Assembly: GCA_021014325.1 (NCBI GenBank) | Contig: CM037461.1 | Location: 521,501-585,500, forward strand | Direction: 5' to 3' | Origin: Plazaster borealis | Taxonomy: Eukaryota; Echinodermata; Asteroidea; Forcipulatida; Labidiasteridae | DNA: 64,000 bases | Notes under the pieces: model-generated | Told to the model about the DNA's origin: nothing | The model's database searches: none | Seen by the model: only the letters and a program-made list of their open reading frames with translations | Made by a program: the position numbers and the translations under genes | Shown here: piece after piece, positions 8,194-46,700 of the stretch | How positions within the stretch are numbered: the stretch's first letter is position 1 | Layout: every line of letters begins with the position of its first letter

Positions 8194-11100
8194 TTAAACG
8201 ACACTTGCAGGTACCTGGAAACAGAAAACATCCTTCGAGTCTTGGTCTTGCATCTCCCATTTAACGTAGACATTGACCTGGAAAATATAATGTGAATATC
8301 TTCAGTTGTGGAAATAACTCAAGGATGGATTCAAATTATACTTCACCACAGTAAGGCCTTACAATGGAGTTTCTATGTGGTTTTTGAATTCGGAAACGCA
8401 AACAGCTGGAGCACATTTTTTCACAAAAAGATTCGATGTCTATAACATACTAGTAACAGGCGCGGATCCAGGGGGGCGCGGGGGGCGCACGCCCCCCCCC
8501 CTTTTGCCATCAAAAAAAAAAAAAAAAAAAAAAAGGAGAAAAAAAAAAAAATCAGAAGTCATACTCATTAGTGCATTGGCAATTTCGCAGTGCAGAAAAA
8601 TAGAATGCTGTCTGGGGATGGCGCGGTCTTTCATTCTGAAAAAAAAATCACGCCCCCCCGTTTGGAAAATCCTGGATCCGCCCCTGAGTAATAATTTGTC
8701 TTTTAATGGTCGCTGGAAGATACAAAGCGGGATTAAGGTCTGCATTAAACAAACGTATCTCATTTTTTTTAAAAATAGCCTGCGCCTGCCACCAATGCGC
8801 GCAATTATCGTCCAATTCGCCGTATTTTTGACCGCTTGAGGGCGTATGTGAGCCGAATTCACGTGATGCAAAACAAGTGAACAAACTGGGGGTTTTCATT
8901 GTTGTTATTATTATGTTTATGTATTTCGTCATTGATGCAAGAAAACTACATACAGGCAATTAAAATAAGATGAAACTGTAATTGTGATGCAAGACAATTC
9001 CGATAAAAGCACCCTAATGCGGTCAAAAATATGATCAATAGGATTTCTGTTTATTGAAATTGATACGATAGGCATAACTAATCTCGCGCAATGAACTTGT
9101 AAACGTTTGCTTCACAGATTATAAAACTGCAATTACCTGCGGGTATTCCTTCATCACAAAGAGTTTTCCCTTATACAGATTCTTAGTGCCTGGTTTTAGT
9201 GGGCATTTAATTCCAGTTGTTGCGCATGCGTCTGTGTATGGTGTTGGAAATGGTAAGGGCAGTCCACCTATGATGCCATGAACAACAGTCGTTGCCTTGG
9301 TAACTGTTTTCGATCCTGTAAAGTAAATCAATGTCGGATTTAATTCATTATTTTGTGGATTTTATTTTCATTAGAGACAATTAGTTACACTATTCAAAGA
9401 ACAAATCAAAGAAAAAAACGAAAGCTTGAAAATAACAAATTTACCAGAATTTAATAGCTGAATAAACTGGCTATGGAACATAATACAACAAGTAGCTTCG
9501 TTGTGTATGTTAACGTCATAATCGTAGCTTCATTGTTCTTATGCATTAAAAAGCACTTGTTTGTTACAAATGTCATTTGCAGAAGCTTACGTAGTCCTAA
9601 TCCTCGATTAATAAAACACCATTCTACATTAAATTCGTAGTTAGTGTATCAATATTAGCGATTTATTAAAAATGTGCCCATAATTAAGAGACTTTAAGAC
9701 CCTAGAGGCAGCAGACTGATCGGGTAACTTCTCTTGGCCAGTAGAGCAGTGTATTTATAATATTATTTGTTTTACCCTTACACCGATGTGTGTAAAGCAA
9801 TGTATCCGAGTCCTGTGAAAAAAATCCACAGGCATATTACTGTATACAGTGTATTTAGAGTTGCGACATGGAGGGACTAGTTTTCTTTGGTCATGCAGCT
9901 GACGGATACCAATTTTAGTCCAAGTGGAGCTCAGAGTCAGACTGTGTGCAATCTAATCTGGCACCTTGTGTGCACACATGAGTTGAACAGAGGAGGGTCC
10001 ACGATTGCAGGTGTTAACACACCTGTGTGCGCTGGTATGTATTTGTTTGTTTTATTTTGGACCGAAAATGCAAGTTTCTGTTGCAAGTTTTTGCAACTCT
10101 CTTAATATACGTCTCTGCCCTTGGCTAGGCACTCAATGCAAGACGTAACAACTCAACAAACTGTAGCACGGCGCCCAGATAAGAACAAAAGAAAACATAA
10201 ACACGTGAAACTGAACAACTAATTACCGTATGGTTTTGATTCATCCATACTGGCTTTAGGTTTGTGCACTTGCAACAAATACCATTAATTTGTCGGCTCA
10301 GTGCTATAAGGTCATTAACTGCAATTTCACATCCGTAATGATTAAAAGTCCATGACATGAAAAATGCGTATAAATTTGATAATTTTAATGTACTTAGAAT
10401 TTTCTTTTTTTTTTTTCAAAAAAAAACAAAAGACCACTCATGATCAATAAACTTTAAACCCAGAAACAAAAAATGAAAATAAATTTGATGAAGTCCATAC
10501 AAATTGCACTAAGTCTGGAGCGTTAGAATTCTTGTTAGCGAATGTTAGCTGAAATATCCATTTATATTGTAATATCCTGGTGAGGGTCATGACCTTGAAT
10601 AACTAGAGTAGTTTGACCATGTCTAGACCATGTGATTAATGGAACTTTTGAGAAATTGAATCCACTATGGCACTGCCGTATGTTACCCTAAACTGTCAGT
10701 ACCTGAAAAAGGCACCAAAATACCACCACGAAGCAAATAAAGCTTACCAAACACGCCAACAACAAATCAAAAGACGACTGTAAAAACTGGACATTGATAA
10801 AAACGGTAAAAACAAGCAAACACTGGCAGAGAATAGGTGGCAGCTACAGAACATGATGCTAGACTAGACCGAAAAGTGAAAATGGCGTCCAGCAACCACA
10901 ATCATGACCAAATAAAACTGGTCCCTCCATGTTGCAACTCTCTTAGTATACAGCTCTAGCCTTGGTCAACTAGACAACGTAATTGAGAGCATTAAGATAT
11001 GTTCAGTACTCACCGCCCATGGTAAATGTGACCGAAACGCTAACATTGGTTCCCCGTTTAAGTTGACACGGTAGCTTTGGGCAAGGCACTACATCCACCT

Positions 11101-21164: not shown

Positions 21165-21170
21165 GATCTT
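21165..21170. other. Target-site duplication GATCTT, left
   Basis: GATCTT directly precedes the left terminus TATGGTGTTC. The identical hexamer directly follows the right terminus at 37911-37916. This defines insertion of the 16.74-kb element. Confidence 0.8.
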
Positions 21171-21790
21171 TATGGTGTTCTATAAAGGACACTTACACGG
21201 CGACTTTTTTTTTTCAAGCGGCGACTTTTTTTTTTCAAGCGGCGACTTTTTTTTTTCAAGCGGCGACTTTTTTTTTTCAAGCGGCGACTTTTTTTTTTCA
21301 AGCGGCGACTTTTTTTTCACGCGGCGACTTTATTTTTTCAAGCGGCGACTTTTTTTTTATCGGCGACTTTTTTTTTTAAAGCGGCGACTTTTTTTTTAAC
21401 GCGGCGAGTTTTTTTTAAGAGGGGACTTTTTTTTCAAGCGGCGACTTTTTTCAAGCGGCGACTTTTTACACGCGGCGACTTTTTTTTTGGCGGCGCCTTT
21501 TTTTTTTAAAGCGGCGACTTTTTTTTCACGCGGCGACTTTATTTTTTCAAGCGGCGACTTTTTTTTTAGCGGCGACTTTTTTTTTTTCAAGCGGCGACTT
21601 TTTTTTTTTTTTTCAAGCGGCGACTTTTTTTTTTCAAGCGGCGACTTTTTTTTTCAAGCGGCGACTTTTTTTGGGGGGGTGGCGCCCTTCCGGTTTGTGA
21701 TTGTGTTTGAGGGGATTCCCCTAAAGGTCAGTCACGCGCAAGCGCACGACTGATCTACTTCCGCATTGTGCAGCAAGATGGTACTCGACC
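21171..21790 (+). repeat. Left terminal inverted repeat with embedded minisatellite
   Basis: Terminal 35 bases, a 21-bp array (about 21198-21672) of GCGGCGAC followed by about ten T and CAA, then about 115 bp of inner sequence. The inner part matches the right end over GTTTGTGATTGTGTTTG, GCGCAAGCGCA and GATCTACTTCCGCATT. The array is about 180 bp longer than that at the right end. Confidence 0.8.
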
Positions 21791-21802
21791 AGAATGACAT
21801 GG
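21779..21802 (+). other. Possible upstream ORF / non-coding first exon of the HECT gene
   Basis: ATG GTA CTC GAC CAG AAT GAC ATG precedes a strong GTAAGT donor at 21803. Splicing to the acceptor before 22458 would place TAA directly after it, making a short upstream ORF ahead of the main ATG at 22462. Phase excludes it as the protein's own start. Inferred only. Confidence 0.4.
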
Positions 21803-22461
21803 TAAGTTACGTTAGTCCATGAGCCCTGGAACACCTCTAGGTGGGTAGTATGTGGTTGTAAATTATGGTTTCAGTTTTGGGATTTTCGGGTCTGCCATAT
21901 AATGTGTACAAATATAACTGTTCTTTTAACCTATTCTTAGCATTAGTAAGGGGGTTAGACTAGAGGCAGGTGGTTAGAGGTGGAGAGATCAAACATTCCC
22001 CCATACTTCACCATTTCAACAGTTACTGTAACTTCAACTTGCCACAATTAATGTTCAGAATGATGTCATGATTATATGATGCATTTTTAGTAAAGGAACG
22101 AGAGCATTAAACTCACACACATTGTATGTACAATTAAGTGGATTTTTTAATGACTTCTAATGAGTTGTTTTGTTTTACCAGTCATCCGGAAGGGGATAAA
22201 CTGATCTCATTCCAGACTAAGATAATGTTATTCATCAAAAATACAGCAAATGAAACAAGTTTGTTAAACTGCCTCGAATTGGGGACAGCAGTGAATAGAA
22301 GCATAATATAATTATGTATTGTCATGGTATTGTAATTCCACAAAGATACACAAATACAATACAAATGATGCATGATCCATGGCGGATCCGTGCAAAGAGC
22401 GAATAGCTTGTGAATCTGTGTTCAATAGTATGGTTTTTCCTCTTATGTTTCATGTAGTAAA

Positions 22462-25400
22462 ATGGATGAGGTACTATCAGCACTCAGTTTGGAGCATCTA
22501 ATAGACACATTTGCAGTCAACCAGGTGAGTCACAATGTACAAGTGTAGCTGTATTTTTCCCACTTGATTAGCCTACTTTCCAGTGTCATCAGTGGTGAGA
22601 CAATCTCAATCTGGCACAGTAAAGGTGGAATGGTTAGGAGGAATATTTACTGCCATGTTATATAACTCTCAAATAATTTGGTGTGTGTGTGTGTGGGGGG
22701 GGGGGATGGTATTCATCCCCATTATGATAATATTGCAGTGCATTATATCCCCTATTTTAACCCCACCCTAAACTCACTGTATCAATATTTGTTTCATAGG
22801 TCAGCCCAAAAGAAGCGGTTTCTCTAACAGACAGTCAGTTTGGGTTACTTGGTGTTTCCAAAGTTGGAGACCGGGTCAGGATTAAACAAAAATGCAAGGA
22901 GACCATAGACGGTAAGTATTATCACTTTGTTTGATGAAATGGATAAATTATCCATGCAAACACTAAAGCTGCTTTTGATATGTTAACAAGCAATCTCACC
23001 CTTACCAACTTTTTAAAGTCATAATAATTAATTGTATGCAATATCTGAAGGGTTCGCTTTTCTCTTTTGATATAATTTACTCCCCACCCTGTAAGTATAG
23101 TGAAATAATATCGGATTCTATCGTGTAAATTCTATCCTGAAGGTTTGTTTAACTTATCGGCCCTCATGGTTTCGAGTACGAACTGATAGGGTTCGCTGCA
23201 AGTTAGCAGGGGGTACAAATTGCCTGGGGTATATGCAAGTTGGCTTGTTTCCATTCAAGTAACTAATAATTATAGAAAACAAATTGTTGATGGTTTTCAT
23301 GAAATGGATCCTCATCTTTACACATTAAAGCTTTAAAAAGTATACTTTGACCAGGTATGAAAAGTCACATTTTTACTTTCGATATTTGCATATTCCCATT
23401 GAATGTTGTTTTATCCACAAATCACTCACATAGCTTTTATATAGTGCACATATTTTTGTGGTCTGTTATTCATTCCTTTTCATTTCATGTTTTATCTTTA
23501 GAGCAATCAAGTGCTCTACCTGTAGTTCAAAGACTAAGAACTATGTTTCAAAGCAAGCGGCAGGAGCAAACTTCTGGAAAGACCAAGTCCCAAACGCTAC
23601 GTATCCAAACAGGGTGGAAGCATAAAGATAAAGATTCAAGCAAACACAAGATGATAACAGCAGCAAAAGGTGGTGGGTCTTTGAAACTGGATGTGGAGCG
23701 AGATGCTTCAATGGAGACTCTTCTGGAGCTTATTCATAACTTGTATTTCCCAGGCGGAATCAACAAAGCAAATGACCTATTGCTGAATGATTTGATCACC
23801 AAACTTGCCACCTTTAGTGGAGAAGAGCTTCCGAAGATGATCAATGGAAATCCTTTTTCCATGTCGGATTTTTTCAAGTACATTAAGACACATCCTGTCC
23901 GTGTGTATTTGGAAACAGCTTTCAAGGAAGAGGTATTGTTGAAAATACATCCATTATTTGCTAAACTTGTAATGGCCTATTTATAAGTTCTGTATCCACC
24001 ATAAAAAAGTTGGTCTAATGTTACTTTTTACCAATTTTAAAACTGAAGAGTCAAATCAGCACTTTAAATCAAACAGTTTGGTAAGTGACAACTCTATATG
24101 ATGTTAGATTTAACTAAATGAAAATGGTGCATTAGCATTGTCAATGTTCAATCTCACACAGTTCAATATCAATGTAACTCTTCTATAACATAAATGTATA
24201 GTGACTGAACTCTTTAAAGTATTGATTGAACAGTTCAGTTTTAAGAGTAAAGAGTCTATTTAGTGAACCTTATGTCATGCATTTTATGAATTACATGTAT
24301 AAGTAGACCTTTATAAACACTCTCATTTTTTTAACAGATGCCCTCATCAGATGAAGACGAACTTCCAGACATCTTTAGGTCTAGACGAACTAGAAAAACT
24401 CACAATGAGGTTTGTATTTATGCTTGGTTATAATGAAAGAAATTAAAATGTTACTCCAGATAATGTATCATTTGGTAGCAGTTTGCCTTTAAGATTCTGG
24501 GAAAAAAAAAAGAAAAAAAAAAAAAATAGTGTTATTCACTTTTGTTAAACCTGATAAGGCATTTGTTAGAGTGGTCATACTTTCTGCCAGTATTTTTTAC
24601 AAAAAACCCCCAATCAATTATTTAATTTTAACCTATAATTGGACACAGAATGGTAAAGGAAACTCTTAAATTTTCCCTCCCTGACACCTGATCTGAAACA
24701 AACAGTCTGTACATAATGTGTAACTCTTGCAAGGTATTAATTTACAACATTCTGAGCTTAAATTTAAATGTTTTTTAGGAAATAGTAGACTCAAGTGAAA
24801 AAAAAGACTCTTAAAGCATTCTTGAGCTTTTACATACATTTTGTAGATCAACTAATTTTTTATCTTCATGGTCATAGAATCATGGTAATCTTTAGCAAAA
24901 TTACATCAAATTGTATGGAAGGAAACAAGTTTGTTCTAAGAAATATCAAACAGGTAATCTTAAAGGTCATATATTGGGACAGTGTTTTGAGTGCTTATTT
25001 GCTTGTACTGTTTTGTTTATTATAGGGTGCTGAGAGCAGAGATGAACCACCGATAATACAACCAAACACTCCAACAGTGACATTCAGGGTAATTACATTT
25101 CCACAATTTTAGAACGTGCGACTCCACCTGTACACATAGATAATTTCTCAAAAATTAGGCCTGATGGATTTGACATGGAAAATAAAATCATTGCCAAAAC
25201 TTATCAACAAATCTCCAAGAAATTAGGGTTTGCTATTTATTTCAAACAACTGTCAGTCACAATCCTCACTAGGAACTTGTTTTCACTGTGTGTGTGTGTG
25301 TTTTTGTGGGCCTGTTTTATGCTGTTTTCAGGGGGACTCAGAACAGCCACTTGGTGCAGTGCAGTCAGGGGAGCATATTATGTTGTATGTGAAACCTCCA

Positions 25401-28400
25401 TCCAAGAATACAATACAAACAAGTATACAAATGAGAGGTTCATGATTTTCTTGTTAAAAACATGTTTTAAGTGGATGAAAAGTAAACGCTTGTTTTAATC
25501 CCGTATACTATTAGTAGATGGAATGCATAGCCTTGTAGCTCTACTGACATACGAATTTAGATTTGTAAATCCCATTTGGAGGGTTTGTCCAAATGAACTA
25601 TCATGTGGGCTCAAAAAGTAATGTCACCCATCTAGGCATAAATTCAAAAGGTTTTTCGGTCTTGTGAAAATGTTTTTATTCCATGTATTGTTGTGACTTG
25701 CTTTGTTAGATGATAATAGTCATAAATAATTAATAACCAAGTTCTTGTGAATGTTGTTTGCTTACATTATCAATGCTGAACTATACTATGAATTTGCACA
25801 ACAGCACTCCCCATGACTAAAGTTGTAGTATGATAATTTTCTTCTTTAATAAACTGCATTATCAATATTAACCTTATTCCCAAAGACTGCCCACTTCGTT
25901 TTGAACTGTTATCAAGCATAGAAATTTCATAAAATGTATAGTTGCACTTAAAATATAATTTGTAAGCATGCATGCATGGCAAAAAAGTTTTTTACCTATA
26001 TGTACTTTCAGGCAGCATCTACATCCTCATATAACAACAGCCCTTACAGTAACTACATCGATCTGATTGGGGATGATGACGACACTGAGGATGAAGAGAC
26101 GATGCATGTCTCACATGCCACCAAATCCACTGCTGAGGCATCTGCAGAAGTGTAAGCCCATTTATATACTAAACAAATTTCCCTCGCTTTTTTCTTCTCC
26201 TTGAACCTTCTCCCCAATACTTTTCACACAGATTTGAAACTATACATGTACATAGATCACAGCTTGTAGATGGACCTAAATGTTTTAATGTATAAATGTG
26301 TTTAAATGCATCACAAAGTGTCAAATTACACTAAATCAAAAGTTAGAATTTCAAAAAATCATTTCATATCTCTATACAATGTTAAATTTTTTACATCATA
26401 TAAGAGGTCTTGACTAAAGCTACAAAAATGGAATAGGGTGCGACCTTACTTTTTGAGTTTCTTTATCTAACCAAAATCTACTGAACATCATGATACAAAG
26501 TTTAGCATCTACAACTATAATGCTGTTTGTATTTTTAACTTAAAGGAACACTACAGAATTGGTTTTTGCTCACAAAACAGTGTAAGCACTTTATATAATC
26601 CACCATATACATAAACTGACAAACCTGTAGAAGTTTGAGATCGAACGGCCATCTGGGTCACAAGAAAATAGTGAAAAACCGATTACACATTTGCATGTGT
26701 TATACAATACATGAATAAAACACTCATGAGCGATAAACTCCAATCAGAAATTAGTTTTATTTATTTCTCATCAAATATGGCATTTCAGACAGAAATATTT
26801 CTAGGTATGTTTTCTACTATCATCATCATTAGACCGTGTAAGTTGTATGTAAATATGTGATCTTAAAGAAAATTTTAATTACCAGTTCTGTAACGTTCCT
26901 TTAATGGTCTGAAACTTGACATGTGGAATCATGATTTCTTGATTCACTTCAAAGTCAACACACATGATGACATAACATTGTGCACCAATTTAAGCTTTTA
27001 AACTTGCAACAAAACCATATTTTAAGGGCCAATTTAGCTATTATAATGCATTTTGTACAAAATTGAAACTCTTAAAAAAAACTTGTGCAACAATTTGTGA
27101 AATTGATGTTATAAGTATATCATGAGAGTTATTTTGGTGTGTATAGTCCACAAGAATGTTTGGAGCAAATATTGCAACGCCATATGACTGAACAAACAGG
27201 GGACAAAACAACGATCATCATAAACCGGAAGCGGTTACTCCACACAACACTCATAGCCACAAAGGATAACTTCAACTTCCAGAACACACCGTTCATAATT
27301 TTTGCAGGAGAAGATGGTAAGGATGGAGGAGGCCCTAGGAGAGAATTTTTCAAGTAAGTGGCATTAATCAATTCTAATTATACAGAATATTTATATAATC
27401 TTCTGAAACTTTTTTTTAAATGTGCATGAACATTTTTACATACAAAAAAGTTTAAAACATTTTCTCACAAACTATACATCAATATATGCTGATAATTTCA
27501 CTGCTCTATTCCCATCCTTGGAATGCACCAGAGCATGTCAATGAAGGGGAAAATGACATTTTTGTTGAACCACTGGTTACTTTTTTGATATTCATTTTTC
27601 TCTTACAAGCATATAATTTTAACACATGCAGGCTTCTGATGCAAGAGGTTTCGCAAAGTATGGGTGTGTTTGAGAAAGTTGACAATGGCAAGCTGTATTT
27701 TACGTACAGTATCAAAAGCCTCAGAGAACGGAAGTACAGACTTGCTGGTCAGTTTGTCAAATGGAGCATAATTCATGGTGGACCTGGGCTTTGTGCTCTT
27801 AGTCCATGTGTGTTCAACTTCATGACTGAAAGTTCAACAGAAGTCGACTTAGAGGAGATACAGGATGTACCTGACCTAGTCTCACGGGAAAATCTGAAGA
27901 AGGTATAGCGAGAACTTATCTTCCTTGATGTGTGCACTTTTTCTTCATTTGTAACCAGGCTATATTTGTAGGTAATTATGTCATGATGAAAAAGGCAATC
28001 AGTTCATGAATAACAATGTATGGATGAACATGTTCTCCTGTTATGTTCAGAGCACATGCTTTTCAATTGTGAAATAAACTATCACTGAGACGGCGAGAGT
28101 TTATAATGTTGAAAGTCATTTTGATAATACATGCATATAGTGCATTCATCAAGTGAAACGATTATACCTCCTTGTGTCAGTTTTATTATTCTGTTTGTAT
28201 TTATTTTTATTTTATAAATTTTTTAGATTTTATTTATTTCCAACATACCTCCTGAGGGAGAAGCAGTTTTAATTAATATAAGGCTGCATATGGTGCAAAC
28301 CATGTTAATATTAATAAACACCTTACTGCTATCTTATTTCTTACTCCTCTCATCTATCTGTTTAACAATGTGTATCTCTCTTTTTAAAGAAAATGTTATG

Positions 28401-30154
28401 TTATTGCACTTTATTTTAGATAATGTACAGTACAAACGACAACTTTCATGATGTGATTTTGCAGCTAACATCCTGGCTCATCGACCAAGGGGTGACAAAT
28501 GTACATACTTGTACATTCAGATATCGTGACACTCTAACACGGGATCTCTTGACTCATCAGCTGTACTACAGGTATCCATGTGATATTAGATGGTTTTCAT
28601 TGAATATACTGTTCAACCTGTTATCAACCCAATTTCCCCCCCCAGAAAAAAACCCCAAAACAGAGAAACACGCAAACTATAATGTTTTGACATTTTAGTT
28701 TGCTGCTGTTCAATTTGAAATTTGTTTTAACAATCAACAACAGAGTACATTGTACCATCTTTGGTATAATATTTTATATTATATGGAAGAACAATTTTTA
28801 TAGAAGCCCTAATTTGTTTCATGGTTTAGCAAATATAGACTTACTTTACTTTTATGCAACTTTGTTTTCAGAAGGTATGTCTTATGGATCTTAGTTTGTA
28901 ATTTTAACAAATTAATTCCCTAGGGTACAACCAGCTATTGTGCAATTTCAAGAGGGCCTTGGGAAGCTCTGGGAAGATGTTAAGAGAAATCCACTATCCG
29001 TCCGACCACTGTTTGTGTGGAAGGCTTCACCGCCCTTGACATTCTGTGCTTTGAGGAAGTTGTACAAGGTGGACTATGCACCTCTTGGCTCAAATAGTCG
29101 CACTTTGGAGGAAGACACAGTTTACTGTTTCGAAGTGTTCTTACAGAAGGTTTCCAGTAAGTAAAATGATAAATTAAATATCAAAATTGTATAAGACTTG
29201 TTTCGATCAGTGGATTCATTGGGGGTATGCGGGGGGAGGAGAGGGGGGTCCCCAAATTGTTTCCTTCCCTGTGTGAAATTCCCTATATCATGGTTTGTGT
29301 GCTTCCCCCCCCCCCACAAACACACTTTGTCCTATTTTTTATTACATTAGGCGAATCAATTTATAAATACATAAAATGTGTACATTTTTCAGATACATCT
29401 GGAAAGTAATATAGATCTGCAGTTATCGCAATGAAAATTAACAATTTTATTTTAAATCTGATTTTGGTTGTCCGATATTTCAAAAAAATTTGCCCGCTGT
29501 TTTGTTCTTTTAGCCAAAATTTATCCTAAAGCGAAGAACCAGAAGTCTCTTGAGGCAAAAAGAGTAATAGATAAATTGTCCCACACTGAAAGCCCTCTAT
29601 CTTTCTCGCCCGTAATTGTTGTTTGTTTTTTGTTTAATTTGTATTCTTCAGTGCAAAAAAAGCTTACACAAAAGTGTCATTTTAGGATGAGTTCGTCGGG
29701 AGCATGGTTTACCTGACCTGACCCCTGTGTCAGTCTGAATTATCTTCAGCTCACAAACAAATATTAGACCTTCCTTGTATTAACAATTTTTTAACTATTT
29801 TACATGTTCCATGTTTATATAGCTATGAACATTATTGTACAAGGCTAATGTTGAAAGAGACTAACAGTAACCATACCAAATTTCAACAATATGATTATTT
29901 CAGGTGGGGGAGAAGCTATCTCACTCTCCAGTGTACTTGAATTCTGGACGGGAGCAAACGCAATTCCACCCTGTGGGTTTCCACATGACTTGGAAATTGA
30001 ATTCTACACAAGAGAGCCAGACATCATGAGGTTGCCAAACAGTTCAACATGTGCACAGATACTACGACTCCCCCGGGGGATTGATGATCCAAAGGATCTA
30101 CAGAATATGATGGAGTATGCGGTTAGAGAAGCCCAGGGTTTTGGCAAGATATAG
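22462..30154 (+). CDS. SAM-HECT E3 ubiquitin ligase (G2E3-like), 12 coding exons, transposon-borne
   Basis: Exons: 22462-22524, 22800-22911, 23502-23932, 24338-24409, 25026-25088, 25332-25422, 26016-26151, 27147-27353, 27632-27902, 28420-28571, 28924-29156, 29904-30154. They sum to 2082 nt (about 693 aa), with every phase matched and no internal stop. Residues 1-60 form a SAM-like domain (LSLEHLIDTF, LGVSKVGDRVRI). A low-complexity acidic linker follows, with IDLIGDDDDTEDEE, a likely SUMO-interacting motif. The C-terminal half is a HECT domain: an N-lobe from about residue 350, and a C-lobe ending LPNSSTCAQILRLPRG. The catalytic Cys is codon 30050-30052, 34 residues from the end. HECT ligases take ubiquitin from an E2 onto this Cys and pass it to substrates. 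Vertebrate G2E3-like proteins are the nearest family I recognise; substrate unknown. A donor at 25437 instead of 25422 adds five in-frame residues. It shares the mobile unit with a transposase. Confidence 0.85.
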
Positions 30155-32255
30155 CATGACATAATTAAAGGTCTAAACCATCTTCCCCATTCATCATTAA
30201 TTGCCAAAATTTCAGTGTGATAATCACCGTCGACTTTGCTAATAATAGGCCCACATTTTTTGTTATTTGGTTGACTTGCATTCTCCAGAAAGATTTCCTG
30301 TCAATACTCTGAGTTACTGTTTGCGTGATGTTTATTTTTGAGGTGTACGTATTTATACACCAGTTCAGAAAGAATTTTCAGTAGAATGTGAAATCAGTGG
30401 ACCAAAGTAACATGTTCTCATAACAGAGAGGCTGTTGAGGTTCAAGTTGTAATTAGGTGAAAGCGTTGAGGTAATTTTTGTGAGATGTTGACTCTGTACA
30501 AAACGGATATGCAAAGGCCCTCCTTTAATTGTTTTATTATATTTTAAGTCGTATGTGTTAATGTCAGAGAAGTAAGCTTTTCCTGTAATTTCATCGAAGG
30601 ATCTGGGGAAAAAACCGATCCCATGTGTCTTATTACGCCAGTTATGGAAGCCAGTGAATAAGCCAATATTCATCAACAAGGCTGTGAAAGCGTGTAATTT
30701 TACAGTCGTTTGTCATAACATACCTTTGTGTGTAATGTATGTAAAACGTGCCTTTCAATCGTGAAAAAGGGTATGAAAGGGTATTTTCAAATTTGAGCCA
30801 CACCTAACCATTTGTATTGCTAGTTTTCATAAGTTTATCACAGTATCTTCACGTTATGTTTTATACACACAAACATTAACTTTAAACAAAGTTTTTAGTT
30901 CCAAAGTGTTTTATTGTTCATGTTTGAAGTTTAACCTCGTTAAAGACTGAAATGTTAAAAGTTCATTATACATTGAGATTATACTCGTTAGTTAACTTTT
31001 TATTTATGTATTGCACAACCTGAGCAATTACAGATTTATAAGTTTCGGTTTGCCGTAACATACTCTCATTATTTAGCAGAATAGCCTATAGTTGCTCAAA
31101 GATTTTATCATGCTAATCTACTGTCGCTAAGTAGATTAGGGATCGGATGACTCCATGTAATTTTACTTCACAGTCGCTAAGTGAGAATGTTTGGACTTGC
31201 GTCCCCCAATCCCTTATCTACTCAGAGACGATACATTTGCATAATAGGTCTTTTAAGAACTACCGGTGTACTATACAAAGCAAGACTAGATAATCACACG
31301 CAAACCGAAACCTTTTTTACAATCGGTAATATTAGTTACAAAAGAGCCTTGGATGAGCAGCCTCTTAGCATGGAATTTCTACCTCCATGCTCTTAGTTAC
31401 CACAGCTGCAGTCATGCATCGGTCAACCGCTTTTGTTATTGGGTTGTGCTGTCTACAACTTATTAGCAATACTGGTAAAAATACTTTTTATAATAATAAG
31501 CAAAATATAGTCCACAGACATGATGCAATATATATGAAGAATTCCATCCTCAAATCATTTTAAGGCTGTGATTAAAATTAGCTTGAGAAACATCCGTTTT
31601 GGAAATTTTGAATTTTTAAACGAATTTATGGGACATTTTAGGAGAACTTATGTTTTAGCATTTTTGATTATTATTTCAAGACGGGGAAACAAAATAAACA
31701 GCAAGTGCATTGAAAATGTGTGCCCTATAGTGTGCAGTTACAAAATATTCAATGCATTTGTTCTCTCATAAAAAGTGACACTACAAAAAATAGTGAGCTT
31801 GAATTTTCAAGATTGTTGGTCTGTTTTGGCATTCATCTAAAGACATTAGCGTAGTTGGTATTTTTTCAGAGAGGAGGGGGATGCCAAAAAACCGTTTGGT
31901 ATAAAGGACAACAAAAACGTCCGGATTTTTCGAAGGGCTTTCATGATGGTGAAGTTTGTAAAATTTTGCCCCCGAGCTACGCAACTGTGTACATTTTTCG
32001 TGAAGTGTAGCCTACAGGAGTTGCTTTCGGGCACGTGTCCCCCTTACAATTACATACATGTAAGTTTAGTATTGACATGGAGCTATAAATGTTATTTTTT
32101 TATAAGACCCATGGCTGCACACTATAGAAATCACAATATAGAATTAGCTTTTATCGTTACGGCAATTGAGTGTGGTTAACAAACAACGTGTATTCAACCC
32201 CTGTGATCTATTCAATTATGTAAAAAATGTTCTGTGCAATACCACAGTTCACGTT
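30155..32255. other. Spacer between the two convergent transposon genes
   Basis: It probably holds both 3' UTRs. A 104-codon open frame on the minus strand (30365-30679) has ordinary composition but no recognised domain or splice partner. About 31840-31990 has GGTAGTTGGTATTTTTTCAGAG..GGGGGATGCC text like the end of a short DNA element. Confidence 0.35.
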
Positions 32256-35200
32256 TTATGGTTGCATTTTGTCCAAGAGCCACTGGAATAATCCAATGCC
32301 TTCTGCAAAGGATGAGGGCATTCCCTTGTTGTGAGTGAGAAGTAGGTCCTGACACACAGCTTCAAATTCGTCACTGCATCCATTTATTGAGGGTGAAGAT
32401 GTAAATTCATACTTGACAGCTTCAATTTCTTGTACTTGCACAGGAGACGGAAGTCTTGTGCTCCTTTAAAACAAAGTTTTAATAAAATATTATATTATTA
32501 TATATTTATATATATATTTCATGTTAGACAATTTGGTTGTATGTTCTTTTGGATATAGTTCTATACGTCTCTTCAGGGAGACGGAAGTCTTGTGCTCCTT
32601 TAAAACAAAGTTTTAATAAAACATTATATATTTATATATTTATATATATATTTCATGTTAGACAATTTGGTTGTATGTTCTTTTGGATATAGTTCTATAC
32701 GTCTCTTCAGGAGACGGAAGTCTTGTGCTCCTTTAAAACAAAGTTTTAATAAAACATTATATATTTATATATTTATATATATATTTCATGTTAGACGATT
32801 TGGTTGTATGTTCTTTTGGATATAGTTCTATACGTCTCTTCAGGGAGACGGAAGTCTTGTGCTCCTTTAAAACAAAGTTTTAATAAAACATATATTTATA
32901 TATTTATATATATATTTCATGTTAGACAATTTGGTTGTATGTTCTTTTGGATATAGTTCTATACGTCTCTTCAGGGAGACGGAAGTCTTGTGCTCCTTTA
33001 AAACAAAGTTTTAATAAAACATTATATATTTATATATAAATTTCATGTTAGACAATTTGATTGTTTGTTCTTTTGGATAGTTCTACACTGGTCTATATAT
33101 TTATTTTAGGCGTCAAGAATGTAAGTGTTTATCATCATACCAAAGAGATGTGGCAAGAAGTACATGAGGTCCGGCTTTCCAGGGAGAGCTATAGCGCGCG
33201 CGACATTCCTCGTTCTGTGTTGATTCCACTCTACCCGCACCTCGTCCAGTTCAGAATGGATAACTTGCATAAGAGCAAACCTCAGACATTCTCTGCAAAT
33301 AATTATTGTAAGTGGAAAAAAAGAATATTATGCGAAAGGTTGGAACGGTTTAAATACACACAATTTTGTAACCAACTAAAGTAACAAATGAACCGTCAAG
33401 GTTCTCACAAAGTACAGAAACTTCGTTATGAGAAAAACAATTATTTCGAGATAATCGTGTTGCAAGTTAGGCTATTTTTAAAGTTTTTAGCTTGACTTTT
33501 TTTGCAGTTGCTAAATTGCGTTAATGATTAATACAACTTTTATGCACTTCATTAAAGCATTACAAAAAACGAGGGATTTATTTTTATTTTCACGCAGCCC
33601 ATACTTTTTAGCACTTCGTGAAAATATTTTGCACTTCGTGGAAATACAAAACACACCAGCTATATTATTTGTTTTTACATACAACTACATGGACGTTCAA
33701 ATTGTGTGCACTTCGTAAAAAAACAAACCACTGAACTGAGGTTTTTTTTCTCGATCTGGTGATTACGTTAATTAGACAACTGTTTAGTTTTCAGATGTAT
33801 ACATGTGTAATGGTAGCTATAGTACACAAACAAATTGCAAACAATTTAATCTGAAAAAGTATCAATCTTTTATACGTTGTTTGCACTTCGTGAGAACAAT
33901 GACGCAATATGAAATTACTTACTTATGCAATGCCAATGTGCAATCCAAAATGCCAATCTCAGTCAAGTTTCTGAGGCTGTCTAGCCAGTAATTCACCATC
34001 ATGTCAAACAACGTTCTCCAAAATCTCTCGATTCTCTGAATAAAACAATTCAGTTGTTCATTTAATTACTGGATAACTTCAAATAATGTAAACCTGTTTA
34101 ATGAAACATTAATAAGACACATTTATCACTGCATAAAGTTATTTCAACTTACATGAGTATTGTTGATAAATAAAAAGGTGAATCTTAGTTTCCTAATGTA
34201 ACAGTTCCCGTTTACTCACCTGATTGTGAGGAGAAGCTGAATACATCACACAGGGACCCTGTTGGTTAGCGAAATACTCCTCATGAAATGCAGTTTGAAT
34301 ATCCGCAATGCGTGTATTCTCAGTGCCCCTATCTACTTGAATACAACGTGGTACAGCTGATGTGTAAAACAAATAAAATATTTAAATTATAAACAATCGA
34401 AATAAACATACATTATGATCTTGTTGATGAACTCACTTAATTATAAAAAAATATCCATTTCATTTTTGAGATCTTAATATTCTGGTTATCAATACCCAAA
34501 ATTTATTAGCCCCATACATCACCTTGAATTTCTTTCGCAAAGTCCACGAAATATGAGGCTGTCACTGCCGGATCTCGATTTGTACTTGCAACTCTTAGCC
34601 AAACCACTCGGCGGGAAAAACTGAAATAAAGCATTACAAAGTTATACAAATCACAAAACCACATGAAATCTTCGAAAACTTTGTTTTGTTTTGTATATAA
34701 CAAAAAGTCATGAGTATCATAATCATTTAAGCATATGATTTGATCGACAACGAATCAATAATTCAACATAATATCCATGGTAGGGCAACAGTCATTCAAG
34801 GGTTTGAATATGTATTTTAAGAGTAAAAGGTTTCCATAATTTATACGCCTTCACTTTGGCCAAAAGACTTCATGTGTTATTGTTTCAATCTGGGCAAACT
34901 ATGGGCATATGAAAAGCTGTATTCCTGGTGGACCTAAACTCGCAGTAGAAATTGTGTAGAGGCTCTTGGGCAGTGAACAGACAAACAGACAAACTATATA
35001 GAACACACATAAATGAACACGGTTCTGTTAATTGTGAAGATACATTATTTATGGTAGTTGTTTAATGTTCATTGTTCTTTGCGTGTACATTATTGTATTT
35101 TTGTATTTTAATGTTAGTCTGTTATTGTTCGTTGTACTTTGTGCGTACATATAGTAAAATACATATGTTTGTTATTTTCTTATTTGCCAGTGGAAATCAA

Positions 35201-37485
35201 ATTGCTATATTTTTAAAAATGTGGACAATAAATGATATCTAATCTAATCTAATCTAATTTGCATTCATCAATGAATGATTGTCATACCCGTCAATAGCAC
35301 CGTGGATGCCAAAACCGTACGTCCTGATTTTGTCGTATTGATCTATGTGGAGAGCATAATTTGGCCCAGCATTGATGTACTCTCGTCGTCTTAGACGGTG
35401 CCTCTTACGGCTGTCGACACCCTCCGGATCAAGCATCCTCTGTCCTTCAATGACAACATCTCTGTTAAGGAAAAGTGAGGACAAGAACTTGACTTTTGTT
35501 TCCCAAAATGGTTTGATAACTTTAAATTGTGTTTTATATACGTAATAATGGTTAGAATAAAACACCATATACTAAAATACGGTCACTATATTAACACATC
35601 ATTCATATTAGTAGCCCATTGTAATGTTGGTAATCTTTGTGAGCTTTGTGATGTTTGTTTATATACCTTGGCACACGAATACCATATCGAGTCAGCATTC
35701 TTCGCCCCATGGAGCGGCACCCAAGGTTTCGGCCACTGCCTTGTAGTTCTATCTGAAAACATTATTGATGAACATTATGATTATATATTGGGTCAAAATA
35801 TTATAAATATTTCATCTTTATTTATGTTATACTATTCTGGAACCAAGGACTCCTCGAAAGTGTCTAGCACTGTTACACGTGTGGTCCGAAGAAACTCGTG
35901 ATGAGGAGACTATGAAGAAATGTTCAGTTTTAGATGGAGGGAAACCCCAGACAGAGGAAACCCCACGTAATGTAGTAAAACTATCCCACCTGCAATGCTC
36001 TGGTCCGGTAAGGATAAGAACCTGGCTCCACAGAAGTGAAAGTTAGAGAAAGATACCACTAGGCCAACCTTATCTCTAAGTAGCCTATCTTTGTTACTGC
36101 CTGTCGGTTTACAGTATAGGTTCTGCAGACAGCCCGCAACCCCCCCCCCCCCACCAACCACCCCGCCCCCGTCACCTACTACAAAGTTTGTTGTTATAAA
36201 TAATTGGAATGTACAAATGTCTCAAAACTGTTCGGGGCGACGTTTTTAGTTACACTATCTATATACCCTGCATGTAATCATATCAACAGTATTGGTGTTT
36301 TACGCCTTGTTTAAATAAAAGGTATTACATGCAACATGAAATTTGCTTAGTGTACCACAATTTCATCATTATGGTTTGTTTGTGCGTGAAAGTATACTGA
36401 CTTTTTCTCTTTTTAAAGGTTACTTTAATTATTTTTTGTTAATTTGTGGTCTCATATTAATTTAGGTAATTATTTGTACACCAACGAAAAGATAATAGCT
36501 ATAAAGAGGAATTGGTATAACAAGGATAACAAATGATTTACGTAAACTATAAATAAAACAAATTTAAAAAAAGCCCAGCCACGTGCCGTACTATTCCACG
36601 TATTAATTACGATCAAGTCATTCGACTTACTTCTAAAGTTGTAAGGAAGAGGTTCAGAGTTTCATCGGATGGATTGTTGCGTTGCAGATTAAGTCTTCGT
36701 AAAATCCTTCCAACAGTTCTGGTGCTACAAGAAACATCAAAGCAGGAAAATTTAGGAGTTGATCATGTTTCGTCAGTCCCCGCCTTGCCATTGTCTTTGG
36801 CCCCATTACAATAAAAATATATAATTATTCCTTTGATAATGGGAAAGAAGAAAAACAAACGGACGATCGATTACAAAGCTTATACTGACTGAAAACTTAG
36901 ACATTTTCATAATTTCAATATACATAAATTATTTACGTTTTGGCCAAACAATAAAATTACCAAAGCTGCAGTTTATCTTTAAATTATCATTATTCATGTT
37001 ATAATTATTTCTGGTAATGAAACCAAGGATGCCTCAAATGAACAAAAATATAACTTTAAAGCCCAAATATTTATTAAACAATTATAAGTATTCTTACCAA
37101 CAATCTATGTTGTGCCGCAGAAACAAAATCGAGCATATTTCGCGGTAGCTGTATCCTGCACTAAAATAGTGGCTCACCAATCCTTCCCTTGCATGCTTGT
37201 TAAGTTTTTAATACAAAAGTATATATTCTTACCCTTAGTTATAGTGTAAAATATTTTGGCTTCTTATTTGTTCCACGATGTGTTTAATAACGAGGGACAA
37301 CATTGTGTCGTGCAGCGTGTAAAATTACAAAAACGAGAGTTTTGAACTCAATTTTTTTTCTTCTTTTTCTTCATTATCACATATAAAAACATGAAAGTAG
37401 GATACAGAATGCATAGATGTCATGAACGAAAAAGGATATTGTCTCTCTGGTCGGGAATCAACGGATTCAAAAGAGTGTAGTCCAT
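32256..37485 (-). CDS. DDE (rve-fold) transposase of the 16.74-kb element, about 11 exons
   Basis: Minus-strand exons: 37485-37428 (tentative), 37182-37098, 36724-36631, 35752-35667, 35461-35288, 34620-34523, 34356-34220, 34035-33923, 33292-33141, a 31-nt micro-exon (one of several copies, e.g. 32995-32965), and 32463-32256. The sum is 1236 nt (411 aa) with all phases matched. An N-terminal helix-turn-helix region spans about residues 20-80 (YFSAGYSYREIC, RTVGRILRRLNLQR). The integrase core carries HIDQYD (D148), VDRGTEN (D207) and RIERFW (E247), with AIDGFSRRVVWLRV between. This is the IS3/rve type of cut-and-paste transposase, acting in the nucleus on the terminal repeats. The first exon's donor (C/GTTCAT) is weak, so the extreme N-terminus is uncertain; the core exons are strong. 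Confidence 0.82.
32442..33085. repeat. Five tandem copies of a unit of about 132 bp holding a micro-exon
   Basis: Copies start at about 32442, 32576, 32708, 32842 and 32974. Each reads GGAGACGGAAGTCTTGTGCTCC, TTTAAAACAAAGTTTTAATAAAA, an ATATTTATA run, then GTTAGACAATTTGGTTGTATG. On the minus strand each copy contains an acceptor TTTTAAAG/GAGCACAAG. Four full copies also contain a donor GAC/GTATAG, 31 nt later in three of them and 30 nt later in the third. Confidence 0.85.
34850..35262 (+). mobile_element. LINE 3'-end fragment with (AATCT)n tail
   Basis: A non-coding stretch ends in GTGGACAATAAATGATATCTAATCTAATCTAATCTAAT, a short pentamer tail typical of CR1/L2-like non-LTR elements. It lies between transposase exons, so it is a secondary insertion into the big element. 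No RT domain is visible. Confidence 0.4.
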
Positions 37486-37489
37486 GCTG

Positions 37490-37910
37490 CACTCCAGCAG
37501 TCGAGTACAAATGCGGAAGTAGATCAGTTATCAGTTATGCGCTTGCGCCTGACTAACCTGTAGGGAAACCCCCCAAACACAATCACAAACCCGGAAGGCG
37601 ACGCGTAAAAAAAAAAAGTCGCCGCGTAAAAAAAAAAAGTCGCCGCGTAAAAAAGTCGCCGCGTAAAAAAAAAAGTCGCCGCGTAAAAAAAAAAGTCGCC
37701 GCCAAAAAAAAAATTCGCCCCGTAAAAAAAAAATTCGCCTATTTAAAAAAAAAATTCCCCGCCAAAAAAAAAAGTCGCCTATTTAAAAAAAAAAGGCGCC
37801 GCCAAAAAAAAAAAGTCGCCGCTTGAAAAAAAAAAGGCGCCGCCAAAAAAAAAAAGTCGCCGCATGAAAAAAAAAAGTCGCCGTGTAAGTGTCCTTTATA
37901 GAACACCATA
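37490..37910 (-). repeat. Right terminal inverted repeat with embedded minisatellite
   Basis: On the minus strand from 37910 it reads TATGGTGTTCTATAAAGGAC, as at the left end. The array of about 20 bp (about 37598-37892) follows, with many decayed units, then the shared inner sequence. The transposase ATG (37485) sits just inside. Confidence 0.8.
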
Positions 37911-37916
37911 GATCTT
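37911..37916. other. Target-site duplication GATCTT, right
   Basis: It matches 21165-21170 exactly and abuts the right terminus CCATA. Confidence 0.8.
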
Positions 37917-40763: not shown

Positions 40764-43700
40764 TTGTTGTTGTTGTTGTTGTTGTTGTTTGTTTGTTTTT
40801 CTTGTTTTACTCATTCCACACCAGTCTGTGCTCGTTAGAATGAGGTCCTTCTGACTACCAAGTTGTCTTCGTTCTAATGGTACCTTGTAGTACACATTGC
40901 GTGGTTTTTGTGCACAAACTATGAATGCACCACGTTTGTGTACTGTGTGCAGTGATGAAATACAAAGAGTTTGCTTGGTGTAGGCATAATTGCTCATGGA
41001 AATATCAAAACATTTTTCAACATGTTATAAGGCATTAGAAAACATATTTTGATAGACTAAGAAGAAATAAAAAAATATAAAAATTGTGATTAGAGGGTTT
41101 TTCAATAATTCATTTAGTAGGACCTACCACATGGGTCAAATTTTGCAGCTTAGCATTGTGTAGTACATGGCCGTTGCTCTTGTTTATGCTCACCGTTCGA
41201 CCACCATTGTCCACAATTAATTGTACAAACATAGACGGGCACCAGCGTCGGGTCTTACAAATCAAATTTATCGCCTTTAAAAATAAATAAAAAACGTCTT
41301 AATAATATATAAATTCATGATCACCCTTGGAAGTTTTTGAATTACACAATTGGATATTTAAAACTGTGCAGGTAGGAAAATTTAAGCGAGGATTAGTGTT
41401 TAATTATTACTGTTTCTGAAGGGCCAACAACGCATTTAAATGAGATCGAAAACTGCAGAAATGAAATGTTGAAATCGTTGACTGGACATGGAGACACTAG
41501 GTAACCACAAGGAGTCAGAGTAGGAAGAAACTGTGGATAAGGCGTCTCCAGACCATTCAAGTCCATTGTTTGAGCATCCAAGAAGGAATTTACTAATATC
41601 TTTTTGTCTTTGCCTTCTCCTTCTTCCACAGTTATCCCATTTTAGTCTACTTCATTTACTAATTAGTATACTTTTTCTCCCTATTTCTCATTTGATTTGG
41701 TCTTTTTTGTTACCTTCTTGTCGTTAAACCAAATCCTCCCATCTACACCCCCTTTTCTCCTTCTTCATTGTTCGTCCCTTGCTTTTTCTGTGTGTATTCT
41801 GCCCCTCTCTGTCTTTATCTCCCTCTCTCCATTTATCTTCATATGACTGCTTATGTTACCTGTATACCTGTTCATGTGTGTTGTGTTGTCTTGGCCTTCG
41901 AGAATTATAATTAACAAGTCAACTTATCGCTCAAGGTACGAAACATGGGTAACAATGAGATAATTTGCCTTGACGGTTTTAAAAAAAATCAGCAAGTCAA
42001 GCATGAGTCCAACTGGGAAAATGTCTTTTGTCCAATTAACCTTCAGAGGCAAACAGCGTGACTTCATCATTCATGAGTGAAGTTTTAATATTGTAGGGTT
42101 GAACTATGGCCAGAAGCCAGACAGGCAGTCACAAACAGCTAAAAACACTGACATCAACGATTGCTTATCGTGTGCAAGTGGAAATAGAAATGTCGCCACA
42201 ATTATTCAAGACTTTAGTTCTATCACTTGCCATCAGGTCGTCACATGCCGGTAAAATAAAAAAAAACCTGATGTTTTGTTGTTCGTTTGTTGTGTATGTC
42301 GGTTATGTTTCTTTGTAAAATTGAAACTTAATAAGACAGGTATCTGATGTTCATTTTCAATCAAGCTAAAGTACAGCAATGGTAATAGAAGAATTAGAAG
42401 AATTATTTATTTATTCAGCCAACGTTAAAAAGTTAACGATATTGACAATATTACAATATTGGCAATTGTGTTACTGCTTGAATATACAAGTTATTGTAGT
42501 ATTTGGAAATGTATAGAAAACTACCACTGCTGTTGTGTTTACGCCCTTTGGATCAAGACAATGTACACAACGAGTACATTACCCTCAGCATCGAGTTTTC
42601 TATCAAACACACCCTCTGGTTCAACGTTTCTTTGGTGTTCCAAATAAAGGACAGGACAGCCTCCATTGTTGTTGTGGATTGCTTCGTCGGAGTAGTGAGT
42701 TGGCCAGTTGCAGTGGTGAGTTGGTCGTTGGAGTTGTAAGTTGGTCAGTTGGAGTTATGAGTTGGCCAGTCGGAGTTTTGAGTTGACCAGTTGCAGTTGT
42801 GAATTGGTCGTTGGAGTTGTGAGCTGGCCAGTTGCAGTTGTGAGTTGATCGTTGGAGTTGTAAGTTGGCCAGTTACAGTTGTGAGTTGATCGTTGGAGTT
42901 GTGAGTTTGCCAGTTGCAGTTGTGAGTTGGCTGTCGGAGATGTGAGTTAGTCGTTGGAGTTGTGAGTTGGTCAGTTTGAGTTGTGAGATGGTCAGTTGGA
43001 GTTGTGAGTTGGTCGTTGGAGTTGTAAGTTGGCTGTCGCAGTTGTGAGTTGGCTGTTGGAGATGTGAGTTGGCCAGTTGCAGTTGTGAGTTGGTCGTTGG
43101 AGTTGTGAGTTGGCCAGTTGCAGTTGTGAGTTGGTCGTTGGGGTTGTAAGTTGGTCAGTTGGAGTTGTGAATTTGCAAGTCGGAGTTGTGAGTTGGCTCT
43201 TGGAGATGTGAGTTGGCCATGGGAGATGTGAGTTGGCCAGTTGGAGATGTGAGTTGGCTGTCGGAGATGTGAGTTGGCTGTCGGGGTTGTGATTGGCTGA
43301 TGGAGATGTGAGTTGGCCGTTGATGAAGTTGTGAGTTGGCCAGTCGGAGTTGTGAGTTGGTCCTTCGGAGTTGGTCAGTTTGAGTTGTGAGATGGTCAGT
43401 TGGAGTTGTGAGTTGGTCGTTGGAGTTGTAAGTTGGCTGTCGCAGTTGTGAGTTGGCTGTTGGAGATGTGAGTTGGCCAGTCGGAGTTGTGAGTTGGTCC
43501 TTCGGAGTTGTGAGTTAGCCAGTTGCAGTTGTGAATTGGCCAGTTGGAGTTGTGAGTTGGCTCTTGGAGGTGTGAGTTGGCCATGTGAGATGTGAATTGG
43601 CCAGTCGGAGTTGTGAGTTGGCCAGTTGGAGTTGTGAGTTAGCTGTCGGAGTTGTGAGTTTGCTGTTGAAGTGTGAGTTGGCTGTCGGAGTTGTGAGTTG

Positions 43701-46700
43701 GTCCGTCGGAGTTGTGAGTTGGCCGTTGGAGTTACGACGGTTTTTTTTTTGGGGGGGGGGGGTGTCCCAGAAAATGTTGCGTGTTCGCCATGTTTTCCTT
43801 TGTACTTTTGAATATAAACTAGAAAAAAAGAAAAAATAATATGTGATAACTCATAAAGGACCACAAAAGGCGTATGTGCAAAAACAAAGTCGCCCCCTCC
43901 CCCTCATAGCCCACAACTAATGACTCACAAGTCCAACGAACCAGCTTGTTTATGTGATCCTGACAACCTTCAGCATGAGTTGCAGCACACGTGTGTGCAA
44001 TCGTCTATCATAATATGGTGCAGGGTGCAGAGTAGTCCAATCTGTGTAGACCGCAGCAGTCTGCTGCGGCAAGGCCCCACGTCAGTGCGGAACCGGTTCA
44101 GGAGGCACCATTGACCGCGGGGAAGGTCCATTCCCGGGAGCTGGATGGTGGGATCAGTTACCAGGAGCTTGTGCGGGACGTCAGTGTGATCTTGCTACCG
44201 CGTGTGCCATTAGTCTATGCTGTCACTGTGCTTTCCGGGATATGTGACCAGAAAGATGTCTAGACTTGAGTCTTGGCCTTAGGTGGAAGTCAATGTGACT
44301 TAGCTCAAGTTTAGATTGGATCTTGAAAACCAGCCCTGATGTGACACATTCTCTTCAGATCACCTGAATGGGCAATTTACTCAGAACTGGTAGCCAATCA
44401 GTCTTTGCGCAGCGAACAGCACCAGTGATGGTCCTCATGGTGTTGTTCAATTGAAAATCGACTAGGCTGGAGCACAGTACTCAGCCACTGAGTAGCAGAG
44501 GGCTAGTGCCGATGAGCGAAGTGTCTTTGCATTTGCTCCCCAGGTTTTACCAGAGAGCATGTGGATCAGGTTGTTTCTGGTCAACATTTTGGCAGCCACT
44601 TTTTTGTTGAGGTGAGATTTGAATGTGAGTGTAGGGTCACCACAATGATATGGAACGGCTACTACTTCAACCAGATCAACACCACCAAGCCCGCCCCAAC
44701 CTCAACCAAAGGGTTTCCTATACCCAAGGTCAACCACAAACCACTTCTCACTGTCTCCAGTGTATCTTCCATCAAGCAGGCATGAGGCCTACACTCCGCT
44801 CGCAAGAAACTTTTTCACACAGACAGAGGCAGACTTTGATCAGAGCAGAACTCATCGCTCTCATCCAGCAGTGGCACCACGAATGCATTAGAGAGACCAT
44901 TAAAAAACTACCAGCACGACACCATTCCTCAAAACATCAGCCTCCCGATTAGTGACATTTGGCTCCCACTCTTCCTTACCAATGGCTCCTCATCTATCCA
45001 CAACAAATTTCCTGCCCCGTAAACTTGGGTCGGGCTGGTAGATCTCAGTGGCCTCTTTTAATGGCACTTATACCCTCAGTACCACCCCAACCCAACCGAG
45101 GCTCACCCTATATTAACCAAACATAAAAACGGGGAAGTCTAGCATTATGAACAAACTTTGAGCAATTGTTTGCGATTTAAGGCTCGTAAAAAAATGAAGC
45201 AGGCCTTTTTTTTTTTTTTTACTTTTTTTTTACTCTTTTAAATAGTAATGATGGTTGAAAGAGGGGTCAAATATTGAAAAGATCACACGGGGGTAAGTCC
45301 AGCCTTTTTAACAAAGTTTTGGTCCACAATCACATTATGGCCATTAAGTCAAGCGGAATTTTTGCTTCAAATTTTGGCCACAAATTAAAAAAACACACTA
45401 GGGCTTGGTCCAGGATTTTATTAAATTTTGATCTAAATTAAATTTAAAAAAAAAATATAAAAAAGGGGGTAGGTCCAGCTTTTTAATCGAAATTGGGTGC
45501 AAAATTGAAAACATCACAAGAGGTAAGTCAAGCATTTCTACCAATTAATTGGATCTAAAATAAAACAATAAAACAACCACAAAGGGGTTATCCGGCATTT
45601 TCATCAAATTGGGTCAAACATGTAAAAAAACACGAGGGTAAGTCCAGGAATATATCAAATTTTGATTTAAAATTACAAAAATTACAAGTGGTAAATCCAG
45701 CATTTTATCAAATTTGGGTAAAAAAAGGGGTTTAAGTCCAGCATTTTTATCAGATTCGGGTCATAAATTAAAAGAAATTTACAATGGGTAAGCCCAGCAT
45801 TTCTTTTTCAAATTTGGGTGCAAAACTTAATAAATAGCAAGGGGTAAGTCCAACATTGTATCAAATTTTTGTCTGAAAATATAATAAAATTAAGGTGTAA
45901 GTCCAGCATTTTCTTTCTTAAAATTTGGACCAACATTATAAAAATCACAAGTCAATAATTCTTTTTCAAATGTAGGTCCAACAAAATTAAACAAGCGGTA
46001 AATTCAGCATTTATTTTTAAATTTTGGTATGTTTTTTGTTTTACATCTTTATATTGTAAAACACATTGAGCGTCTTTTTAGGCGGGTTTCGGCTCTATAT
46101 AAAAAATACTGTTTATTAGTACTCCGTTAAACCAAAAACCGATCATAGCCAGCTCAGCAGAGTTTTAAGATTTAAGAATCGCTTAAAATATAAACAATCA
46201 GTCTATAATTAAAGACTGTCTAAGCGCGTCTCAAGTTAGCCGGCTTAAGCACCGGTTTAAGACCACTTTTTTATCAAGGTTGGGGGTAAGTCAAGCATTT
46301 TCATCAGTATTTGGTCCAAAATTTAAAAAAAAGCAAAGCATTTTTATTAAATTTTGATCCAAAATTTGATTATTAACAAGGAATAAGTCCAGCATTTTTG
46401 GTTAAATTTTGTCAATTTTTTTTTGAAATATTACAAGGGGTAAATCCAGCATTTTTATCAGATTTTGGTCCAAAAGTGCAAATCAAAAGGGGTAAGTCCA
46501 GGTCTTTTATCAAACTTGTGTCTAATTTTTTTATCAGATTTGGGTCCAAATTAAAAAAAAATCGCAATGGGTTAATCGGGAAATTCTATCTAGTTGGGTA
46601 AAAATTGAAAAATTTACATTGGTAAGTCCAGCAATATGTATGAAATTTGTGTCCAAAATTGATAAATCACGAGGGGGTAAGTCCATTATTATAATAAAAT

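Follow-up and report, generated by a model that had tools for sequence, protein, structure and literature searches.

The 64,000-nucleotide stretch of the Plazaster borealis genome analysed here (contig CM037461.1, positions 521,501 to 585,500, referred to as the window) contains a complete DNA transposon of 16.7 kb at window positions 21171-37910, in which a HECT ubiquitin ligase gene on the plus strand and a transposase gene on the minus strand run towards each other. Judged by its sequence features, the element is an IS3EU transposon with the HECT gene as its second gene. It is probably autonomous, with the ligase as a conserved working part of it. The HECT gene moved with the element: both genes are also present in another full-length copy, which stands elsewhere in the genome with a target site duplication (TSD) of its own. 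IS3EU is an already known superfamily (PMC10045372), and the HECT ligase as its second gene is what appears to be new.

Ends and classification of the element

The terminal inverted repeats (TIRs) are 46 bp long without mismatch, the left one starting with TATGG (21171-21216, plus strand) and the right one ending with CCATA (37865-37910, minus strand), and over 65 nt the complementarity is 98%. The duplication GATCTT stands directly outside both of them (21165-21170 and 37911-37916). When 3 mismatches were tolerated, a 36-bp end pattern matched twice in the window, in both cases at the element ends, and 0.00 matches were expected from 100 shuffles. A first-pass annotation of the window had placed a transposon at these coordinates, flanked by GATCTT and holding two convergent split genes, and all of this was confirmed; its assignment to IS3EU is supported. 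Its inverted termini are perfect as claimed, and the length of 35 bases that it gave for them is too short.

The features described for the IS3EU superfamily (PMC10045372, PMC12730594) are TA..TA (TAY) ends, a mostly 6-bp TSD and a DDE core of the IS3/IS481/integrase kind, and all of them were observed here. TAY ends are present in the window element (TATGG..CCATA), in the 20 two-ended copies described below, apart from single deviations, and, as TAC, in a further element on C22; a 6-bp TSD was found in 18 of the 20 two-ended copies, and the transposase has an integrase-type core (rva_4) in which D, D and E are invariant among six aligned sequences. Compared by description, the window element differs from IS3EU as presented in the two papers by the HECT ligase as its second gene.

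The same two-gene design under another label, GingerRoot or an unnamed integrase-type lineage, is doubtful. As described in PMC10045372, GingerRoot shares the 6-bp TSD, the mostly TA..TA ends and the integrase-type transposase with the window element, and the tree does not set it apart from IS3EU; the same paper writes IS3EU/GingerRoot as one superfamily, so that only the label would change. No HECT gene is described there for GingerRoot, a comparison by description only, and TATGG..CCATA fits the TAYGG..CCRTA ends given for fungal IS3EU (PMC12730594).

The TET+ IS3EU elements of rust fungi, as described in PMC12730594, are like the window element in their TIRs of more than 30 bp, TAYGG..CCRTA ends, 6-bp TSD and a gene for a protein-modifying enzyme (alpha-kinase) opposite the transposase. 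In the fungal elements a TET/JBP gene lies between the oppositely oriented transposase and alpha-kinase genes. They differ from the window element in carrying a kinase and a TET/JBP dioxygenase, not a HECT ligase, and in belonging to fungi, not animals. The Kolobok lineages of PMC9587614 are also lineages of a DDE superfamily divided by accessory genes, but these are nucleases, a helicase or KolX, and the TSD is the 4-bp TTAA. Neither "HECT" nor "ubiquitin" is used in the main text of PMC10045372, PMC12730594 or PMC9587614, and the main text of PMC4255032 does not contain the word HECT. Among the titles and abstract beginnings listed, no published description of a HECT gene in an IS3EU-type element was found, most subscription journals and Repbase being outside this scope.

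Copies of the element and of its ends

The genome (560.6 Mb) was searched with a 160-bp end query. Scores were computed for 40 of the 137 candidates, which makes the counts lower bounds. At least 111 matches were found at at least 27 places by our grouping. Sequence was examined at all 27 places, at 14 of them (L023-L036) as one stretch of 5-10 kb from one end, and a copy was called two-ended when both of its ends matched the 21-bp end sequence at no more than 3 mismatches. By this definition 20 places are two-ended (including the window), six are one-ended and L033 has no end at that stringency. The 6-bp flanks are identical in all two-ended copies except L017 and L029, and single end deviations were seen in L019 (left TGTGG) and L036 (right CCAGA).

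The second full-length copy (C20:31419937-31436891, 16.95 kb) is 98.8% identical to the window element over 16,773 bp, contains both genes and is flanked by CCCAAG. Outside the terminal arrays and a 134-bp tandem array, 26 substitutions and 12 gap openings were counted in 15,240 aligned bases. The substitutions comprise 23 in 12,175 non-coding bases, 2 in 1934 bases of the HECT gene and 1 in 1131 bases of the transposase gene; of the gap openings, 10 are non-coding, 2 are in the HECT gene and none is in the transposase gene. Since a nearly identical full-length unit stands at two places, the HECT gene and the transposase have moved together as one unit, and recently. An assembly artefact that joined two loci within the unit, which the first-pass annotation had named as a danger to its claim, is extremely improbable because the copy on C20, on another contig, is collinear with the window over the 16,773 bp, and no N is present anywhere in the window.

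At the remaining 25 places, neither the HECT gene nor the transposase was matched at E 0.01, and this includes the 18 two-ended copies besides the window and C20. The two-ended copies among L013-L036 are 1.8-6.9 kb long, have their ends and much interior sequence in common and match neither gene; by these features they are a non-autonomous family. A 12-kb two-ended copy with the TSD CAACAC (C18:26637444-26649403, covering L011 and L012) also matches neither gene. In L035, 367 bp (8072-8438) are 95% identical to window positions 26539-26905 within an intron of the HECT gene, and this stretch is perhaps a separate dispersed repeat.

Pairing of ligase and transposase across the genome

With the transposase protein as query, 72 matches were obtained in the genome (all 102 candidates scored), and with the HECT protein 37 (all 62 scored); after grouping these correspond to 46 transposase loci and 15 ligase-matching loci. 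Thirteen of the 15 ligase-matching loci have a related transposase no more than 16 kb away, and 11 are convergent with it, the exceptions being C7:9.73M (same strand) and C7:11.37M (not convergent with its nearest neighbour). When the four loci of the window lineage were left out, 9 of 11 were still paired. In 20,000 runs in which positions were drawn at random within the same contigs, the number of pairs averaged 0.15, did not exceed 3 and never reached 9. The transposases at these recurring pair loci have 32-46% identity to the window transposase. The pairing predates the family to which the window element belongs.

Among the nine distant pairs, three (C22, C1:5.53M and C7:10.41M) were examined, only around the ligase match. 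The C22 element (C22:26445002-26455823, 10,822 bp, with bounds resting on this single copy) has perfect TIRs of 67 bp starting with TAC and 21-bp arrays at both ends. Its ligase is an intronless open reading frame (ORF) of 697 amino acids with SAM-like and GGG regions and a Pfam HECT match (2.1e-9, 37.9 bits); it has 29% identity to the window ligase over 174 aligned N-terminal columns and keeps, as read by eye, the catalytic cysteine motif HTCGPT. C1:5.53M holds a close relative of this ORF in which the frame is lost within the HECT region. Two loci of the window lineage are relics: the copy at C7:7.23M is decayed and diverged but retains the final 40 ligase residues, opposite the transposase, and the catalytic cysteine, and C7:9.73M is rearranged, with both genes on one strand.

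Alternatively, the HECT gene could be a passenger, acquired from the host on one occasion and carried along without being needed for transposition. Passengers do occur, since TET/JBP genes are described as having moved from one fungal transposon superfamily to another (PMC12730594). The 18 two-ended copies without a match to either gene were presumably mobilised by a transposase supplied in trans, which makes them uninformative on the ligase. A passenger is nevertheless improbable here: the convergent pairing recurs where the transposases match at only 32-46% identity, one of the recurrences (C22) has unlike ends and an intronless HECT ORF, and the window ligase, the C22 ORF and the C7:7.23M relic all retain the catalytic cysteine.

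An ordinary host HECT gene around which transposon ends were inserted by chance is very improbable. Two of the 15 ligase-matching loci, C3:13.61M and C19:8.38M, are outside recognised elements and would agree with a host gene, but the other 13 are beside a transposase, and the 16.95-kb copy elsewhere has the same content with its own TSD. A segmental duplication as the source of the C20 copy is argued against by the different 6-bp flanks. The claim of the first-pass annotation that the ligase is a part of the element and not a trapped host gene is thus supported by the second full-length copy and by the recurring pairs beside diverged transposases.

Several observations weigh against the ligase as a conserved working part of the transposon. 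In the HECT exons of the C20 copy both gaps are 1-nt differences in homopolymer length, and the frame there may be broken, or the assembly may be in error in homopolymers. The 16-kb limit was chosen after the distances were seen, and the pairing statistics include members of the same family, which are not independent of one another. In the nine distant pairs the ligase match covers the N-terminal region only (parts of residues 20-212, E 7e-6 to 2.6e-4), and a HECT domain was confirmed in just one of them (C22). The C22 element has no matching TSD (GTTAGT versus GGTTTT in the flanks), and its transposase match, opposite to the HECT ORF, covers only residues 3-207 of 376. No HECT domain was found by Pfam in the open frame at C1:5.53M, and only the GGG region was seen in the 2.4 kb examined at C7:10.41M. 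The SAM_1 match in the window ligase (residues 7-55) is below threshold, with 20.3 bits against 23 and an E-value of 0.00073 for the first 72 residues or 0.025 for the whole protein. Furthermore, no ligase match lies within 16 kb of 32 of the 46 transposase loci, a count that is an upper bound on HECT-free loci given a distant query and many short fragments among the transposase matches, and some IS3EU lineages in this genome may lack the ligase.

These counts also bear on two points of the first-pass annotation, which had proposed a search for the termini in the same genome and had named copies without the HECT gene as evidence against its reading. The search gave the at least 27 places, and the second full-length copy does hold both genes; the 32 loci weigh against a general rule that both are present. 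Copies lacking the HECT gene do exist, yet the 18 two-ended ones examined are also without a transposase match.

Two further observations concern the distribution of the loci. The two ligase-matching loci without a transposase match nearby (C3:13610766-13611020 and C19:8379646-8380631) are either solo remnants or host genes. On C7, the contig of the window and about 4% of the genome, 23 of the 46 IS3EU-type transposase loci are located, mostly at 4.4-15 Mb, perhaps in a repeat-rich or non-recombining region.

For the autonomous two-gene transposon, the transposase would cut at the TAY ends and join these to the target in a reaction staggered by 6 bp, as expected from its family. The N-terminal SAM-like and GGG regions of the ligase may dock a nuclear partner, to which the HECT cysteine would pass ubiquitin. 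What the ligase targets can only be guessed from analogous elements. The tentative first candidate is a host factor restricting the element, such as chromatin silencing or end-binding repair proteins, and removal of such a host restraint is favoured because of the analogy with fungal TET+ IS3EU (PMC12730594), whose TET/JBP genes are thought to aid escape from silencing. As a second candidate, not far behind, the ligase could act in transposase turnover or in release of the strand-transfer complex, and some other target is rather unlikely.

A broader and more speculative possibility is that the IS3EU transposons of animals have inherited the SAM-like/GGG HECT ligase as a second gene since ancient times and use it to disable the limits that hosts set on transposition; the predicted HECT genes of this type from sea stars, a lingulid and fish would then be transposon genes or their descendants. 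The two-gene element itself would add ubiquitin ligation to the enzyme activities that DNA transposons carry besides transposase, and annotators should consider that HECT genes of this type in sea stars, lingulids and fish may belong to transposons. One genome here offers a young two-copy family together with older relatives for testing the role of the ligase.

Structure of the two genes and repeats in the window

The HECT gene consists of 11 exons from 21794 to 30154 on the plus strand, which join in phase to 644 amino acids without a stop and with GT..AG introns. Exon 1 as modelled (21794-21801) ends at a GT donor, the start codon lying alternatively in exon 2. Exons 2 (22458-22524) and 3 (22800-22911) encode the first and second halves of the SAM-like region, exon 4 (23502-23932) the conserved GGG region, and exon 5 (25026-25088) is followed by the acidic linker in exon 6 (26012-26151). 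By our reading the HECT N-lobe starts in exon 7 (27147-27353); it is followed by exons 8 (27632-27902), 9 (28420-28571) and 10 (28924-29156), and exon 11 (29904-30154) contains the C-lobe with the catalytic Cys611 and the stop. An early suspicion of a frameshift in the N-terminus was dropped because a fully in-phase exon chain exists, and an additional exon near 25332 was left out because exons 5 and 6 are in phase without it and aligned relatives do not require it.

Pfam HECT matches residues 345-642 of the protein (1.4e-16, 61.4 bits against a curated cut-off of 23.9), and the predicted catalytic Cys611 is invariant across six aligned HECT proteins. The closest database relatives, found with a 574-residue draft query, are from the sea stars Acanthaster planci (39%) and Patiria miniata (37%); nine proteins passed among the best 7994 candidates scored. 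The solved HECT E3 (ubiquitin ligase) structures of AREL1 and E6AP share the HECT domain, the catalytic Cys of the C-lobe and the GGPRRE motif of the N-lobe with the window ligase, but the sequence match is weak (best 8.4e-10, AREL1) and the N-terminal regions differ. SAM was not matched at 0.1 in the Patiria relative P0049 or in the C22 ORF. The predicted structure of P0049 (9-row alignment) had a mean pLDDT (predicted local distance difference test) of 46 and was not used.

In the transposase gene, nine exons from 37195 to 32256 on the minus strand join in phase to 376 amino acids: exon 2 (37098-37195, HTH-like, with a weak start), exon 3 (36631-36724), exon 4 (35667-35752), exon 5 with the first catalytic D (35288-35461), exon 6 (34523-34620), exon 7 with the second catalytic D (34220-34356), exon 8 with the catalytic E (33923-34035), exon 9 (33141-33292) and exon 10 with the stop (32256-32434). 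The acceptor at 37195 stays below the score limit, and the one at 32434 has a score of 0.3. A probable first exon with an ATG at 37485 (37429-37485) precedes them, and no convincing splice pair joining it to the rest was found. The first-pass annotation had reported reassembly of both genes without stops; this was reproduced for the HECT gene and the nine transposase exons, not for the ATG exon.

The rva_4 match of the transposase is above the curated cut-off (3.5e-29), rve is below its own (0.0042), and HTH_21 is weak (0.056, with the first exon not in the model). The residues invariant across the six aligned transposases are D133, D192 and E232. Of 1446 candidates, 47 passed, and the best relative is from Patiria miniata (62%, covering 74% of the query). 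Searches of viral contigs, made with both the transposase and the HECT alignment, confirmed no relative.

Inside the left end lies an array of about 24 copies of a 21-bp unit (21198-21672, plus strand), and inside the right end one of about 14 copies of a unit of about 20 bp (37602-37888, minus strand). With the arrays included, the two end regions align locally (left positions 1-597, 76-94% identity). Since they are related in sequence, both genes start near related end sequence, and we infer that the promoters of both are located there. A second, unlike element (L052 650-1209; L051 505-1077) also has arrays of 20-21-bp units inside both inverted ends, with unit sequences that differ from those of the window element. 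The subterminal arrays of both elements are perhaps repeated transposase-binding sites.

The 134-bp tandem repeat (4.8 copies, 32443-33079) lies within the last transposase intron. Outside the element, units of about 54 bp are repeated in tandem over a long stretch at window positions 45290-50211, and minisatellites with units of about 20-21 bp are present at 42663-43673 and 62480-63338.

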